DNA from: Christiangramia sp.
GTDB lineage: Bacteria; Bacteroidota; Bacteroidia; Flavobacteriales; Flavobacteriaceae
NCBI RefSeq assembly: GCF_029937855.1
Contig: NZ_JAPYPC010000024.1
Coordinates: 1 to 64,000, forward strand
Reading direction: 5' to 3'
Length of the DNA: 64,000 bases
A model generated the notes under the pieces. The model had not been told where the DNA came from. It searched no databases and saw nothing but the letters and a program-made list of their open reading frames with translations. Positions 1 through 5,846 of the stretch are shown here, one piece after another. Every line of letters begins with the position of its first letter. Positions within the stretch are counted from its first letter, which is position 1. A program made the translations under genes and the position numbers.

Positions 1-54
1 AATAATAGAATCAAACCCCTTTATTTAAAACTTACACACTTTACGGGATAGTGT

Positions 55-124
55 CCTATTTTTAAATTCTCAACAGGCATTCTTGAGACAGACTGCCGTT
101 ATAGGCTATTTTCTCACTCAGTCT
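55..124 (+). other. Structured leader candidate upstream of the reverse transcriptase
   Basis: Two nested stems and a third can be drawn here: CCTAT (55-59) with ATAGG (101-105), enclosing TCTCAA (68-73) with TTGAGA (83-88); separately AGACTG (90-95) can pair with CAGTCT (119-124), which competes with the outer stem. Several antiphage reverse transcriptases work with a non-coding RNA encoded just upstream, so a structured RNA is possible, but the stems are short and could equally be an operator. Nothing else is seen in 1-140. Confidence 0.25.
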
Positions 125-140
125 ATTTATTCTAAAGCGT

Positions 141-148
141 TATATTTG
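141..148 (+). promoter_or_regulatory. Bacteroidota -7 box (TATATTTG) for the reverse transcriptase
   Basis: TATATTTG fits the TAnnTTTG consensus and ends 19 nt before the ATG at 168, predicting a short leader. No convincing -33 TTTG is visible. Confidence 0.5.
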
Positions 149-167
149 GAGAAACCGTAAATCCAAA

Positions 168-2090
168 ATGTCCAAAAAAAATTTTAACACTAACTTTTTT
201 TTAGAAAAAACACACTTTCAGAAAGCTTTTGAGTTAGTAAAATTACAATTAGAAAATAAAAACAATTCTTTTAAAACTCTTGAACTAGAAATATATCGAA
301 ATCTTGATATTTTAAAAACATTCGATGTCGACGATTATTATAAAAAATATATCAAAAAAGACATTTTTTATAACCACGTAGATAAATTTTACAACATTTC
401 TTATCTGATACCTAAAGGTTTCTATGGAGTTAGAAATTTTAACTTCCTTTCATTTGAAATGCTCATTCTCTATTATGCACTAGGTTTTTATCTACATGAT
501 CTTATAAATGAATCTTTTAAGACAATAGAAGAAAAAAAAGATAATCGAGATAATATAAATACATATTACGGTGGTAAGATTAATTTTGGCACCCCAAAAA
601 ATTCTGATTTATACTACTTAAAAGATTATATCCACTTCAATCAGTCAGTAAACGGTCAAATAAAAGATATACTAAGTAAAAGGAAAAAAGCAATTGTAAT
701 TAAATTAGATATTCAGGATTATTTCAAGAGTGTCGATTTCGATATACTTATAGAAATCCTTGAAAAATATTCTGTTCCATCCAATAGAAAAACTCATAAT
801 TTTGATCAAACAACTATTCAAGAAATAAAAAATTTATTTCTTTTTATAAATAAAAATAAAATTGGGCTTCCTCTATTTTCACAAAATATTATTTCCAATT
901 TCCTCAGTTATATATACTTATACGAACTAGACAACTATATACAAAATTTAGATGTAGCTAAGGAAAAGGAATTTATATATGCTCGTTATGTCGATGACTT
1001 CTATCTTATTTACAAAAGAAACAAAGGTTTAAAAAATGATTTTATTGGAAATGAAATTTTTGAAATATCAACTGGCATCTCAAAATTTTTAGCAAGTGAG
1101 TTAAATTTAAAAATTAATAATTTAAAGTCTCAAGAATTAATCATATCTGATCAAGATGATTTCGATAAATTCATCAAAAAAGAAAAGGTTGTAAGCTTAC
1201 CAGAAAACGAAGAAGAAGATGAGAAAACTCCTCAAGAAAAATTAAAGGAAATTCTAAATATAATTCGGAAACTTAAAAAGGATTATAAGTCCTATGGTAA
1301 AGCCTACATAAATACTGATGGTAATAATAAACTTAATGATATCTTTTCAAATAATTTAAAGAATTACTCCAATTCAACCACAGCAAAAAAAGAAATTGAT
1401 AAAGTATTCAAGGACTGGAATCCTATACTAACTCTAGCGAATACTTCTACACTAACTTTTCTAATAAAATTATCCTCTTCAAATTCAGAATTCAAGAAAT
1501 TCTTATTTGAACAAAATGAATCTAATTTTCAAAACCCTCAGTATCTCTATCTTTTAGAAAAATTTATTTTAAATAATAATTTAAAGGAATCTGATAAACA
1601 GAAAATTATTGAAATCAAAAGAAATAATTCATATCTAGAATTAATAAAAAAAGTTTTGGATTCAGATTATAAAATGGCTCTACCATCTAATTTCAATTTA
1701 AATATTAGAAATAAAGACTTAAAAACATATGATTCAATGTGCCAACAGTTGAAAATGCTAGTTCTGGCAGAAACCGAACAGAAATTTAACTTAGCTTTTA
1801 ATCACCTACTAAACATTTTTCACCTTCATTGTTTCGAATTCGATAAGAATAAAAATGATAAGAAATTGAAAAATTACAATCAAAATTCTGTAACTAATTA
1901 TCTAGATGACCTTGGTTTGTCCATTGAATACATAAATTTTTCAATTCAGTTTTTTAACCGGAGAAATAAAAATAATATATCACACCCAGGCGAAAAAGAA
2001 ATGGAGAATTGGACTGTTGATAAAGAAGAATACTTAAAATTTAAACTAAAACTTAATGATGTTTTTGGTAAAATAGAAAACAGCCTATAA
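168..2090 (+). CDS. AbiA-like abortive-infection reverse transcriptase with C-terminal HEPN domain
   Basis: A 640-aa reverse transcriptase of the bacterial defence (Abi/unknown-group) type. Palm motif A is KLDIQDYF with Asp181, motif B is GLPLFSQNIISN, and motif C is YVDD (residues 274-277), so the polymerase site looks intact. No retron- or group-II-intron-type maturase region is present. Residues about 330-530 are helical and Lys/Asn-rich. The C-terminus holds RNKNNISH (Arg599-x6-His606), a HEPN RNase-type motif, giving the RT-HEPN order known from lactococcal AbiA (about 628 aa). Such proteins abort phage infection; template-independent DNA synthesis is known in relatives. The gene is far more AT-rich than its neighbours, fitting recent transfer, and sits beside an integrase. 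RT identity is sure; AbiA grouping is likely but not proven. Confidence 0.85.
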   Translation: MSKKNFNTNFFLEKTHFQKAFELVKLQLENKNNSFKTLELEIYRNLDILKTFDVDDYYKKYIKKDIFYNHVDKFYNISYLIPKGFYGVRNFNFLSFEMLILYYALGFYLHDLINESFKTIEEKKDNRDNINTYYGGKINFGTPKNSDLYYLKDYIHFNQSVNGQIKDILSKRKKAIVIKLDIQDYFKSVDFDILIEILEKYSVPSNRKTHNFDQTTIQEIKNLFLFINKNKIGLPLFSQNIISNFLSYIYLYELDNYIQNLDVAKEKEFIYARYVDDFYLIYKRNKGLKNDFIGNEIFEISTGISKFLASELNLKINNLKSQELIISDQDDFDKFIKKEKVVSLPENEEEDEKTPQEKLKEILNIIRKLKKDYKSYGKAYINTDGNNKLNDIFSNNLKNYSNSTTAKKEIDKVFKDWNPILTLANTSTLTFLIKLSSSNSEFKKFLFEQNESNFQNPQYLYLLEKFILNNNLKESDKQKIIEIKRNNSYLELIKKVLDSDYKMALPSNFNLNIRNKDLKTYDSMCQQLKMLVLAETEQKFNLAFNHLLNIFHLHCFEFDKNKNDKKLKNYNQNSVTNYLDDLGLSIEYINFSIQFFNRRNKNNISHPGEKEMENWTVDKEEYLKFKLKLNDVFGKIENSL

Positions 2091-2133
2091 CATGGTATAA
2101 TTCAAGTTTTTTCTAAATTTAGAATGCTGTTTT

Positions 2134-3405
2134 TTATTTTTCGTGATTCTTTCTTGAAGTAGATTTCGCGGCTTCTTTCTCTGCCAGTTTTAATTTTAAT
2201 GCCTTCATGTCATCACTAATTTTCCGGTCTACAATCTTAGCATAATGCTGTGTTGTACGTAGATCCTGGTGCCCCAGCATCTTACTAACAGATTCTATAG
2301 GCACACCATTGGTCAGAGTAATAGTAGTTGCAAAAGTATGCCGGGCGAGGTGAGTGGTGAGTGGTTTCTTTATACCACATAACGCTGCGATCTCTTTTAA
2401 AAAGGCATTGGATTTCTGGTTGCTCAATACAGGTAAAACGTATTTTCCGTCTTTTACTTCCGGATGGTCTTTGTAACGATCTAAGATTTCCTCGGCAACG
2501 GGTAGGAGTGGAATACTGCTCAGGGATTTTGTTTTGGTTCTCTTGATGCGAATCCATTTGCCACCATCGATGCCTTTAGTGATATCAGTGCTGCTCAGTT
2601 TTTTCACATCAGAGTAAGCTAGGCCGGTATAACAACTAAATACAAACATATCCCGAACCAGTTTAAGGCGATCCAGATGTAGATCTTTATCGATTAGCTT
2701 CTGTACTTCCTCTTCGTTTAAATATTCCCTCTCTACCGTTTCAAATTGCACCTTGTAATTATAGAACGGGTCGCGGTCCATCCACTGGTTAGCCAGGGCA
2801 ATTCGAATGATCTTTTTAAAATTGTTCACATACTTCAAAGCGGAGTTATGGTTACATTCCCTTTTGGTCTTTAAAAAATACTCGAACCTGGTGATAAACT
2901 GATGGTTGATATCATTCATCGGGTAATCAGCGACCTTCAATTCTTCATTAATGAATTGTTCCACATGGTTATAACAGGTCCAGTAACGATTTGCGGTACT
3001 TTTAGAGATGCTTTTGCCCGAAAGCCGATCCATTTGTTCATTATGCTCATTAAAGACCTCCAGGGTCATTTTAGCCTTCTTTTTATTTACTCCTTTAAAT
3101 TCATCAAGTATGCTTTTTGAGGAAACAGATTTTTTCTTCTCAATGAGGTCCTGGTGTATATTCTTGATTCTATTCCTAATTACATTTATGTAATTGTTCA
3201 ATTCTATCGCTTCAGGGCTTTTTCCCAGCATTTTTTCAGATTTTGAATGCCATTTCCTGGGATCCACTTTGCGGTTAATTGTCATGGCAGACCGCTTATT
3301 ATCTACCGATATTCTTAGGTAAATGTCACTCTCAGAAGATTTATTGCTTCTGCTTTTTCGAAGGTAAAAACTAAGTTGGTACGAAGTGCTCATATTTTTG
3401 GTCAT
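2134..3405 (-). CDS. Tyrosine recombinase (Bacteroidota-type integrase)
   Basis: A 423-aa phage-integrase family protein: an N-terminal Arm-DNA-binding-like domain (SFYLRKSR...), a SAM-like core-binding domain around residues 105-205, and a C-terminal catalytic domain. HLAR (His352, Arg355), GH (His379) and HYAK with Tyr388 are visible. At the usual Arg-I position the sequence reads TGLAYSDV, with Ala in place of Arg, as seen in some Bacteroidota integrases such as IntDOT. It lies next to the 3' end of ssrA, a classic integration site, and converges on the reverse transcriptase (43 nt between stops). It probably catalyses integration and excision of the element that carries the RT. Confidence 0.9.
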   Translation of the reverse strand: MTKNMSTSYQLSFYLRKSRSNKSSESDIYLRISVDNKRSAMTINRKVDPRKWHSKSEKMLGKSPEAIELNNYINVIRNRIKNIHQDLIEKKKSVSSKSILDEFKGVNKKKAKMTLEVFNEHNEQMDRLSGKSISKSTANRYWTCYNHVEQFINEELKVADYPMNDINHQFITRFEYFLKTKRECNHNSALKYVNNFKKIIRIALANQWMDRDPFYNYKVQFETVEREYLNEEEVQKLIDKDLHLDRLKLVRDMFVFSCYTGLAYSDVKKLSSTDITKGIDGGKWIRIKRTKTKSLSSIPLLPVAEEILDRYKDHPEVKDGKYVLPVLSNQKSNAFLKEIAALCGIKKPLTTHLARHTFATTITLTNGVPIESVSKMLGHQDLRTTQHYAKIVDRKISDDMKALKLKLAEKEAAKSTSRKNHEK

Positions 3406-3494
3406 AAAATTGGCACTTAAAATAGTGAAAAATGATATACGAAATGAAATTTTAATATTTCGTAAAGAATTGATATTAAGGGTTTATGGGTGCT

Positions 3495-3544
3495 TCTGGT
3501 GACCAATTTTTTCGGAAAAAATTGGTCACCAGATTGGTAACCAA
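3495..3544. repeat. Perfect 18-bp inverted repeat plus a second palindrome between int and ssrA
   Basis: Arms 3495-3512 and 3516-3533 are perfectly complementary with a 3-nt CGG loop. The palindrome TTGGTAACCAA follows at once (3534-3544). All contain GGTnACC. The position between integrase and att side suggests recombinase/excisionase or regulator binding sites; the first could also be a hairpin in RNA. It lacks a clean T-run, so a terminator is less likely. Confidence 0.6.
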
Positions 3545-3586
3545 AAATGTGTTATTATTTGATATTAAACGACATTCTTAAAAATG

Positions 3587-3621
3587 AAAAACCCCGTAAA
3601 TCCTAGGATTCCGGGGTTTTT
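3587..3621 (-). terminator. Rho-independent terminator of ssrA
   Basis: Arms AAAAACCCCG (3587-3596) and CGGGGTTTTT (3612-3621) with a 15-nt loop. It lies 23 nt past the 3' end of tmRNA on the minus strand and also works as a hairpin on the plus strand. Confidence 0.85.
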
Positions 3622-3644
3622 GATTGAGATTGATACTCAAAAAG

Positions 3645-3680
3645 TGGAGTCGGAGGGGTTCGAACCCTCGTCCAAACAAG
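3645..3680. other. Inferred attachment site of the integrated element (3' end of ssrA)
   Basis: Inference from the integrase lying 240 nt from the ssrA 3' end, a common target for tyrosine recombinases. The second, distal copy of this sequence is not present in 1-3400, so the element must extend past the left edge of the window. Exact crossover bases cannot be set from one end. Confidence 0.5.
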
Positions 3681-4041
3681 CAATTCAGATGCTTTCTACA
3701 CGTTTAGTTTTCACTTGATTGTCGATGCAAAGCCGGCCGAAAACCACCAACTTTACACGTATCCTCACTTAAGTTTCGGAAACTCATCAAGGCCCTGAGC
3801 TTCCTATATTTACTTTATCGGTGCCCCGGTTGCGAATGCCGTAAATCAAGGCCTTCGCGGGACATCTTGGCCTCCTGCCTTGCAGGAGTTAAGAGTAACC
3901 TACTATAATTCGGTTACGCAGCCAAGGCGTAGTTATTCTCGCCGTTTAAAAAAGTGTGAAACATGAGATTTAAGAGCTATATTCCGGCGCTCTACGTGCT
4001 TACAACTCAATTAGACTCGCTGTCAAAACCAAGTCGACCCC
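3645..4041 (-). ncRNA. ssrA: Transfer-messenger RNA (tmRNA)
   Basis: Rescues stalled ribosomes. The acceptor stem pairs GGGGTCG (5' end, 4035-4041) with CGACTCC (3' end, 3646-3652), discriminator A at 3645; a T-arm GGTTCGAACCC-type sequence lies at 3654-3667. The tag frame (3914-3943) reads GENNYALAA followed by TAA, typical of Bacteroidota. The base after the discriminator is not CCA (the DNA reads CTTT), so CCA must be added after transcription. The adjacent integrase indicates that the 3' part of this gene is the attachment site of the element to the left, and that the gene has been rebuilt intact. Confidence 0.95.
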
Positions 4042-4135
4042 ATAAAATAATGAACATCTTGAAGTACGAGTTCCGAAGTTAGAATTACGAATCTTTAATC
4101 ATTCGTACTTCGTATTTTATACTTCTAATTTCAAT

Positions 4136-4258
4136 GATGGCGTTCCGCTCCTGCTTGCGCAGTCGCGGCGGGCTATTCGCTTCAATCTTTTTAAGATGCT
4201 TTCTAGCTTTCGCTCGTAATCCCTTAAAAAGGATTTCCGCTGCTATCCCTAACGCGAA
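4136..4258. repeat. Dispersed flavobacterial intergenic element (candidate)
   Basis: A GC-richer island in an otherwise AT-rich, gene-free 4042-4643 stretch. It contains a perfect inverted repeat CTTTTTAAG (4187-4195) / CTTAAAAAG (4223-4231) and ATTCGC (4175-4180) opposed to GCGAAT (4254-4259). From general familiarity I believe similar segments recur between genes in flavobacteria, but I could not check. No protein is evident. Confidence 0.4.
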
Positions 4259-4300
4259 TGTGAACGGTTAAAATTGTTTGATTTTAACCAGTTCGAATTC

Positions 4301-4411
4301 GTCCTGAATTTATTTCAGGACCTCTTCTAAAATCCGTCAAGCTGTTCCGATAGCTATCGGAATTGATTCAGCTTCTCAAAATAAGATTCTGAAACAAGTT
4401 CAGAATGACAC
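4301..4411. repeat. Intergenic repeat family A, copy 1
   Basis: Outer halves are related inverted sequences: GTCCTGAATTTATTTCAGGA at 4301-4320 and GATTCTGAAACAAGTTCAG within 4385-4410. Related pairs occur at 8842-8920 and 28647-28714. A third inverted pair, CCGATAGCTATCGG (4348-4361), lies inside. Just downstream, 4542-4573 holds another short repeat-like stretch (GGGAGAGG ... CCGGGTGAGGG). Confidence 0.6.
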
Positions 4412-4601
4412 CATTAAAAAATAAAATTTCAAAGAATACCAACTGTTATTTCCAGTTGGGCCAGCAAAGATACTCATTTCACTAACAATTAGCTTATCCT
4501 GTCTAATATTTCCTATTTCACCTCTCTCTTGGGAGAGGTCGGAACTACTTTTTGTAGTCCCGGGTGAGGGTTAAAAAAATTTTTCGGAATTTTTTTATTT
4601 A

Positions 4602-4609
4602 TATCTTTG
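4602..4609 (+). promoter_or_regulatory. Bacteroidota -7 box (TATCTTTG)
   Basis: TATCTTTG 34 nt before the ATG at 4644, consensus TAnnTTTG. Confidence 0.6.
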
Positions 4610-4643
4610 AGACACTACAAAACTACACAAAACCTATACCAAA

Positions 4644-5846
4644 ATGATAAAATTTGCCCTGATCAAAGAACGAAAAACTCCGCCCGATCGCCGCGTCGTT
4701 TTTTCTCCACAAATGCTTAAAGAAGTGGTTTCTCAATTTCCGGAAGCTTCCTTTAAAGTGGAAAGTTCTGATATCAGGATATTTAAGGATCAGGAATATC
4801 GTGATGCAGGTTTTGAAGTTTCCGAAGATATTAGTGATTGTGAGGTGCTTTTAGGAGTAAAAGAAGTGCCCATCCCAAATTTGATACCTGACAAAAAGTA
4901 CTTCTTTTTTAGTCATACTATTAAAAAGCAGCCTTATAATCGTGACCTGCTACGAGAAATTCTGGAAAAGAATATTGAGTTGTACGATCATGAGGTGATT
5001 ACCGATAGAAATAATGCCAGGCTTATTGGATTCGGTAGGTATGCGGGTCTGGTAGGCGCTTATAATGGTATTCGGGCTATCGGGATTAAGGAAAGGAGAT
5101 TTGAACTACCCCGCGCCGAAGATCTTCCTGATCTGGAGGCGATGCTGGCAGAATTAGGAAAAATTACGCTTCCAAACTATAAATTTGTACTAACGGGAAG
5201 TGGAAAAGTAGCCCGTGGAGCGAAAGAAATTCTTGATCATTTAAAGATTAAGAAAGTATCAGCAGCGGAGTATTTAAAGAATGAATTTAACGAACCTGTT
5301 TTTTGCTGTATCGATGTATTGGATTATGCCAAGCGAAAAGACGGGGCTCAGGGTAGTAGAATGGAATTCTATAAAGTTCCGGAAAACTATGAATCAGATT
5401 TTATGAAATTTGCCAAAACCAGCGATGTTTTTATTGCAGGTCATTTCTATGGAGAAGGGGCACCCATATTTTATTCAGAAGAGGATATTAAAAATGAAGA
5501 TTTCAGAATTAAATATGTGGCTGATATTTCCTGCGATATTGCAGGGCCTGTGGCTAGCACAATCCGACCTTCAACTATAGCTGAACCATTTTATGGCTAT
5601 GATCCTGAAACAGGTTCAGAAACAGATTTTATGAATTCCGAAGCTATCTGCGTTATGGCGGTAGACAATCTGCCTTGTGAACTGCCGAAAGATGCCAGCG
5701 AAGGTTTTGGGGAAATGTTTCTCGAAAATGTAATTCCTGCATTTTTCAATGATGATAAAGATGGGATCCTGGGACGTGCAAAAATGACCGAAAATGCCAG
5801 GCTTACGCCTTTATACTCCTACTTGGAGGATTTTGTAGAAGAATAG
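4644..5846 (+). CDS. NAD(P)-dependent oxidoreductase, alanine dehydrogenase/PNT and lysine-forming saccharopine dehydrogenase superfamily
   Basis: A 400-aa protein whose N-terminus (KFALIKERKTPPDRRVVFSP) matches the alanine dehydrogenase / transhydrogenase N-terminal fold and whose middle has a Rossmann-type loop GSGKVARG near residue 184. The arrangement resembles NAD-linked saccharopine dehydrogenases (L-lysine-forming) and alanine dehydrogenases. Substrate cannot be decided from sequence alone; no lysine-pathway gene is adjacent. Its 3' end overlaps the convergent DUF2809 gene by 28 bp. Own promoter at 4602. Confidence 0.75.
   Translation: MIKFALIKERKTPPDRRVVFSPQMLKEVVSQFPEASFKVESSDIRIFKDQEYRDAGFEVSEDISDCEVLLGVKEVPIPNLIPDKKYFFFSHTIKKQPYNRDLLREILEKNIELYDHEVITDRNNARLIGFGRYAGLVGAYNGIRAIGIKERRFELPRAEDLPDLEAMLAELGKITLPNYKFVLTGSGKVARGAKEILDHLKIKKVSAAEYLKNEFNEPVFCCIDVLDYAKRKDGAQGSRMEFYKVPENYESDFMKFAKTSDVFIAGHFYGEGAPIFYSEEDIKNEDFRIKYVADISCDIAGPVASTIRPSTIAEPFYGYDPETGSETDFMNSEAICVMAVDNLPCELPKDASEGFGEMFLENVIPAFFNDDKDGILGRAKMTENARLTPLYSYLEDFVEE

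Follow-up and report, generated by a model that had tools for sequence, protein, structure and literature searches.

A very divergent AbiA-like reverse transcriptase without the priming tyrosine, beside an integrase and ssrA in Christiangramia

Introduction

Do all AbiA reverse transcriptases (RTs) start their DNA on the same tyrosine, and can an Abi RT start DNA without a protein primer at all? The second question was raised by a 2024 study of AbiA (PMC11077055), and a naturally occurring relative of AbiA whose polymerase site is intact and whose linker is free of tyrosine, as described here, provides a ready test of both.

In Lactococcus AbiA, polymerase activity and defence require D240 and Tyr298/Tyr303, and the D240N and Y298F/Y303F mutants lose defence; of the two tyrosines only Tyr298 is conserved, and it was proposed as the likely universal AbiA primer (PMC11077055). 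According to the report on AbiK and Abi-P2, the former starts DNA on Tyr44 and the latter on Tyr61 (PMC9508834), so the priming site moves within the Abi RTs. As described there, both resemble the AbiA type in combining an RT-like polymerase with a helical domain and in making protein-primed, untemplated DNA, but they differ in having no HEPN domain, in forming trimers or hexamers and in carrying the priming tyrosine N-terminally. DRT3b is described as priming from Tyr666 (PMC13174585). The fusion of an RT to a HEPN domain is the published AbiA design, reported in 2013 (PMC3710099); one survey of complete genomes gives 29 AbiA RTs, >70% of them with a HEPN domain (PMC8934634), and the structure of AbiA was solved in 2024 (crystal structure 8oz7).

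An initial annotation, made from the letters alone, had presented the gene as the best candidate here for a poorly described system. That label does not fit a design on record since 2013 and with a structure since 2024: what is already known is the RT-HEPN architecture of AbiA, and what is new is a very divergent AbiA-like RT without the priming tyrosine.

Results

Gene, motifs and surroundings

The window analyzed is a 64,000-nt stretch of Christiangramia sp. (NZ_JAPYPC010000024.1, positions 1 to 64,000, forward strand); its relevant features are collected in Table 1. The AbiA-like gene starts with ATG, its frame is intact and its product contains D181, YVDD (residues 274–277) and R599NKNNISH606. 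These residues, including the R599-x6-H606 pair, lie exactly where the initial annotation had placed them, and its description of AT-rich DNA next to an integrase was equally accurate: GC content is 24–27% in the four 500-bp bins spanning positions 1–2000 compared to 31–43% in the 20 bins that make up the rest of the first 12 kb, with ~25% in the gene itself. Short motifs carry unequal weight in such a protein. Shuffling the C-terminal 133 aa 100,000 times produced a generic R-x4-6-H in 24% of cases, and the R-x6-H as first described therefore proves little, while the family-specific RNxNxxxH arose in only 0.25% of shuffles of the same residues. Similarly, [YF]xDD arose in 32% of 20,000 shuffles of the whole protein, and the RT call rests on more than YVDD because AbiA models score 134–141 bits.

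Table 1 Features of the AbiA-like locus, in window coordinates
Feature	Position	Strand	Basis
End of multicopy repeat, contig break	1..55		Same 55-mer (100%) at end of contig C32
AbiA-like RT-type polymerase, 640 aa	168..2090	+	TIGR04499 and PADLOC AbiA matches
RT-like domain, ~residues 60–330	345..1157	+	TIGR04499, 107.7 bits on residues 1–329 alone
Catalytic D181	708-710	+	Invariant with five AbiA proteins
RYVDD, residues 273–277 (catalytic aspartates)	984-998	+	Invariant with five AbiA proteins
Residues 283–372 (palm end, linker, helical-domain start)	1014..1283	+	Tyrosine-free
Pro345, aligned to priming Tyr298 of Lactococcus AbiA	1200-1202	+	
C-terminal region, residues 508–640, matching HEPN part of AbiA	1689..2087	+	TIGR04499 fragment match
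RNKNNISH, residues 599–606	1962-1985	+	Within C-terminal region
Tyrosine integrase (Arm-DNA-bind_5, Phage_int_SAM_5, Phage_integrase)	2134..3405	-	Domain matches
tmRNA gene ssrA	3644..4041	-	ARAGORN, Rfam RF00023
Chromosomal anchor gene, dehydrogenase-like from sequence	4644..5846	+	tblastn match beside ssrA at 23/24 loci, own included

The integrase gene is convergent with the AbiA-like gene, and we infer that the 3' end of ssrA is the integration target. Among 24 same-genus genomes, 23 had an ssrA match (own included), and in 4 of the other 22 a homologous integrase stood on the same side of ssrA and was oriented alike (75.6–96.5% identity); a fifth carried a 42-aa integrase fragment at ssrA. 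A 24-base query from the ssrA 3' end had no second copy in the genome at up to 3 mismatches. Stretches of 3–20 kb from 14 same-genus genomes (n = 14) contained no ORF of at least 70 aa resembling the AbiA-like protein (blastp, 1e-8). PADLOC was also applied to 20 proteins encoded as cargo in four islands of the genus that share this integrase. It returned Cas12f/Cas12u3 (6e-52), PDC-M03A (1.3e-9) and mad8 (1e-3), the first a strong match that we read as a putative TnpB, and no whole defence system among those 20 proteins. We do not claim a defence hotspot at ssrA. Of the initial description as 'defence cargo', foreign-looking cargo beside an integrase is borne out, while defence is a call by homology, with no whole system among those 20 island proteins.

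Base 1 of the window is also the first base of its contig (C57). A multicopy repeat occupies this contig end up to 112 bases before the ATG, so that upstream cargo is out of view. Besides the copy on C32, related copies lie at the ends of contigs C26, C8 and C36 and internally in C45, such that 4 of the 5 other copies sit at contig ends. Near the repeat in C45 is an ORF that by eye resembles the tail of a tyrosine recombinase, so the repeat may mark where a mobile element, and not a classical IS, ends. On C32 (L215 734-1531), an ORF matching PrrC (PADLOC, 2e-98) follows one that looks HsdS-like by eye. The PrrC-matching ORF extends into the C32 copy of the repeat and terminates in it, and the repeat thus seems to have truncated a gene for a PrrC-type anticodon nuclease.

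As to a possible noncoding RNA partner, Rfam returned no match at E<=1 over the AbiA-like gene (window positions 1–5000, with 167 upstream bases covered). Beside ssrA it placed a Flavo-1 RNA at 4162-4273 (-) above the gathering score (55.5 bits), in keeping with a flavobacterial host, and a sub-threshold whalefall-1 match at 4518-4571 (+) (30.3 versus 37). Another genome has a second ssrA-like copy (G1186:C1:247380-247780; L199, L205) that is 92% identical and lacks the anchor gene, and is possibly element-borne or a duplicate.

Family assignment

AbiA is by far the closest family to this protein. TIGR04499 aligned collinearly through the RT, helical and C-terminal parts (residues 10–630 on profile positions 1–612 of 615; 140.6 bits, E = 7.4e-41), short of its curated cut-off of 250 bits, and the PADLOC AbiA model PDLC03741 gave 133.6 bits (2.1e-39) compared to 36.9 bits each for Drt2 and CRISPR RT, the best non-AbiA PADLOC models listed. 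Residues 1–329 alone scored 107.7 bits with AbiA versus 41.4 with Drt3a and 40.7 with the retron St85 RT (cut-off 235); the group II RT model reached 37.1 bits (cut-off 300) and the RT_outgroup (retron) PADLOC model 10.7 bits. The proposed HMM search thus upheld the AbiA-like call, and did not place the protein with retron or group II intron RTs, the identities that the initial annotation had named as contrary to its own, the AbiA scores being far higher. At E<=1 the protein was matched neither by the AbiK and Abi-P2 PADLOC models nor by a further AbiA model, PDLC02341, though the latter matched P0003 and the Lactococcus protein P0006.

The distance to known members is large. Identity is 18–21% to five AbiA proteins, four from genomes of the Streptococcus henryi order and one (P0006, 18%) from the Lactococcus plasmid pUCCL629C. 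Of 70 columns invariant in these five, the window protein keeps 32 and loses 38; those kept include D181, D276 and D277, aligned to D155, D240 and D241 of Lactococcus AbiA, and R599, N600, N602 and H606 near the C-terminus. Six AbiA sequences, the window protein not among them, were combined into a local full-length model that gave the window protein 22.8 bits, compared to −18.9 for the best shuffle (n = 500). Searching the PDB with the window protein alone returned no chain at E<=10; a profile combining it with four AbiA proteins found solved AbiA 8oz7 at 8e-106, a match that is not independent since the profile itself includes other AbiA proteins. Like the window protein (640 aa), Lactococcus AbiA (8oz7; P0006; 628 aa) has an RYVDD RT-like domain, a helical domain and a C-terminal RNxNxxxH (RNSNPVSH versus RNKNNISH), and on pUCCL629C it also adjoins an integrase; it differs in having Tyr298, Tyr27 and Tyr363 where the window protein has P345, S34 and S394.

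A score on an AbiA model is no proof of membership, because the HEPN-less AbiA-like protein P0007 (PADLOC PDLC03742, Mesobacillus plasmid) scored 127.9 bits on the model that gave the window protein 133.6. P0007 likewise consists of an RT plus a helical region, but it has only 481 aa and keeps a tyrosine 58 residues past the catalytic aspartate; on the P0007-type model PDLC03742 the window protein reached only 34.9 bits. When seven AbiA sequences, the window protein excluded, were made into an RT model, P0007 scored 78.1, the window protein 48.6 and a UG35-like RT 47.4 bits on it. An RT tree built on 50 rows (the best-scoring 50 of 76) gave the window protein an end branch of 2.06, a flag for letter make-up and no firm place; it fell outside the AbiA+P0007 clade. 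AU tests did not reject grouping it with the seven AbiA rows (P = 0.364), with AbiA plus P0007 (P = 0.453) or with either of two other long-branch RTs (P = 0.303 and 0.41).

These data could be read as a separate RT-HEPN lineage that is sister to AbiA, ranks alongside other UG/DRT groups and has its own initiation and perhaps another product. The score far under the AbiA cut-off, a distance from the AbiA model about equal to that of P0007 and greater than that of P0007 on the RT model, the position in the tree, the loss of priming and DNA-stacking tyrosines described below and the lack of a second member among the sampled Bacteroidota genomes are all consistent with such a lineage. However, the AU tests leave union with AbiA standing, the shared position of RNxNxxxH points to a single RT-HEPN ancestor, and 140 bits on TIGR04499 compares to at most 54.5 for the non-AbiA RTs listed in genome searches, P0007 not being among them. 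On balance we regard a separate lineage as rather unlikely. Because its score is under the cut-off, P0007 comes near-equal and the RT tree gives no firm place, we call the protein AbiA-like without filing it under AbiA; it probably works like AbiA.

The C-terminal region

The last 133 residues alone matched TIGR04499 positions 507–612 at 3.8e-7, as did 0 of 9 shuffles. Other searches with this fragment gave less: Pfam HEPN_AbiA_CTD (PF18732) found nothing at E up to 10, yet recognized Lactococcus AbiA at 7.7e-27; PADLOC models found nothing; and a local six-sequence model gave 1.0 bit, a score equalled or exceeded by 415 of 1,991 scored shuffles. hhalign aligned just the motif, with a score of 18.9 compared to at most 16.8 in 100 shuffles and a probability of only 2.4%. 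AlphaFold2 with one homologue predicted four long helices (pLDDT 56), which we used only as a hint; a single-sequence model of the whole protein (pLDDT 35) was discarded. The structure prediction that the initial annotation had suggested for this end did not show the HEPN fold, giving the four long helices at low confidence and nothing significant by Foldseek (0 of 38 matches at E<=0.001).

The Pfam and PADLOC blanks, a local model no better than shuffles, the low hhalign probability and a low-confidence fold without significant structural match would all be expected if this region were not HEPN and the R-x6-H had arisen by chance in a helical tail rich in K and N. We consider this very unlikely given the TIGR04499 fragment match, the rarity of RNxNxxxH by chance, an hhalign score above every shuffle and the four predicted helices. 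From the motif and one family model, the C-terminal region is likely a HEPN domain.

Whether such a domain would cut RNA is a separate matter. The AbiA HEPN domain was predicted to be an RNase in the 2013 report (PMC3710099), and the initial annotation took the HEPN site to be likely active. That view lacks support, because Lactococcus AbiA left the RNA substrates tried uncut and its R581A, H588A and double mutants keep defence; removal of the HEPN domain, on the other hand, abolishes the AbiA dimer and activity (PMC11077055). With RNxNxxxH retained and the primer lost, one could propose, as in 2013, that the HEPN domain is a working RNase toxin and that the polymerase is decaying or catalytically silent. 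We find this very improbable: the ORF is intact, both catalytic aspartates are retained, and in Lactococcus it is the polymerase mutants rather than the HEPN-site mutants that lose defence (PMC11077055). The window protein also raises the question of why the HEPN motif is kept at ~20% identity, though its mutation is harmless to defence against the phages tried.

The missing priming tyrosine

In an alignment with the five AbiA proteins, Tyr298 of Lactococcus AbiA falls on Pro345 of the window protein. As loop alignments are unsure, a second, alignment-free count of tyrosines was made, starting at D276 of YVDD: none occurs from +7 to +96 (residues 283–372), compared to a tyrosine at +54 to +59 in 7 of 7 comparison proteins (P0002–P0008, including the HEPN-less P0007 and the viral-contig fragment P0008). 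Two AbiA genes that are broken likewise have a tyrosine in their linker pieces (SFYNEF in L158 and SLYDEY in the G1524 piece), making it present in 9 of 9 comparison sequences and absent from the window protein. Pro345 itself lies at +69 from the catalytic aspartate versus +58 for Tyr298. Of four DNA-contacting tyrosines, two are replaced (Tyr27 by Ser34 and Tyr363 by Ser394) and two are kept, as Y150 and Y154; the latter correspond to Tyr130 and Tyr134, which stack on DNA in Lactococcus AbiA (PMC11077055).

At ~20% identity, and with 38 of 70 invariant columns lost, the loss of one conserved residue is expected and would not by itself surprise. The weight of this one lies in its role: the residue that serves as primer is gone while the catalytic site is intact. 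The initial annotation had judged the polymerase likely active; the catalytic aspartates are indeed kept, but the absence of the conserved priming tyrosine, which it overlooked, weakens that judgement.

Tyrosines are present elsewhere. Y373, Y376 and Y380 come just past the linker, Y376 aligning to Y337, which is invariant across all six proteins, and residues 43–108 contain 11 tyrosines; AbiK and Abi-P2 are described as priming from N-terminal tyrosines (PMC9508834). The protein might thus be an ordinary AbiA that primes on Tyr373, 376 or 380 or on an N-terminal tyrosine, a mere shift with nothing else changed. This seems doubtful to us, since other AbiA proteins carry Y337 alongside Tyr298 without its being their reported primer, and since the tyrosine-free interval from +7 to +96 exceeds any plausible register error.

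We lean towards a different reading, which we hold to be somewhat probable: that this is an AbiA-type antiphage DNA polymerase from an ssrA-targeting integrative element, with a strand start that is not on a linker tyrosine. The element would have brought in the gene. By analogy with Lactococcus AbiA, the RT-like domain would make untemplated single-stranded DNA, and the HEPN domain would be needed for dimerization and activity and not as an RNase. A start on a linker tyrosine is impossible in a linker that has none; the hydroxyls between residues 318 and 370 are S321, S327, S343 and T354. The strand would most likely start on another hydroxyl, for which the candidates are Ser343 and Thr354 within the linker and, outside it, an N-terminal tyrosine of the kind used by AbiK and Abi-P2, or else without protein. 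For the activity, dimerization, alternative primer and phage defence of the window protein, we infer from its better-studied relatives; a decayed or differently used enzyme is possible.

A further reading combines several changes in a new RT-HEPN lineage: an untemplated DNA start without the AbiA tyrosine (on Ser/Thr, on a partner molecule or de novo), a rewired product channel and a HEPN site acting on a different DNA product or trigger. As a whole we think it quite unlikely. These rival readings partly overlap and are not all mutually exclusive.

Distribution

A search with the protein itself across 397 family-level genomes recovered only itself and one weak partial match. Among 395 genomes of the phylum, 90 had some TIGR04499 match, none over the cut-off; the window protein was the only whole-profile match, the next best reaching 50 bits. 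A profile that includes the window protein (A3) matched 11 of 256 genomes of the order, with a next best of 46.8 bits. These family, phylum and order samples overlap, and no other AbiA was found in the sampled Bacteroidota genomes. By comparison, the TIGR04499 cut-off was exceeded in 5 of 395 genomes of the Streptococcus order, one with a broken gene, and in 1 of 259 of the Streptococcus phylum sample, again with a broken gene, the same one that an overlapping 249-genome sample gave.

Pattern searches of genome contigs and viral contigs revealed no close relative of the window protein. tblastn against phages and plasmids gave partial matches, covering the RT domain at E<=1e-5, and no full-length relative among the best 60 of 63 at E<=10. 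Profile A1 retrieved 18 RT-region loci. Among the matches listed from the open-access literature, we found no paper on AbiA from Bacteroidota or Flavobacterium or on AbiA without Tyr298.

Broken AbiA copies are not rare, being found in 2 of the 6 over-cut-off genomes. One Bacillota AbiA (L284, G1524:C1:1832001-1838200) is split just before its priming-tyrosine segment by a ~3.7-kb insert with two long ORFs that look transposase-like by eye, and another (L158 and L289, G1098) is split over two frames with stops.

Other AbiA proteins, when searched against viral contigs, gave no match or a single AbiA fragment (L220 = L270 = L283). This fragment (L220 124-1311, with RNQNPLCH and SLYDEY) sits where a viral contig ends, next to an ORF that is DNA polymerase-like by eye, and is possible prophage cargo. 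Finally, an AbiA gene in another genome (L286 703-3990, G950) is followed with no intervening gap by a P-loop ORF that looks KAP-like by eye, and the two may possibly form a two-gene system.
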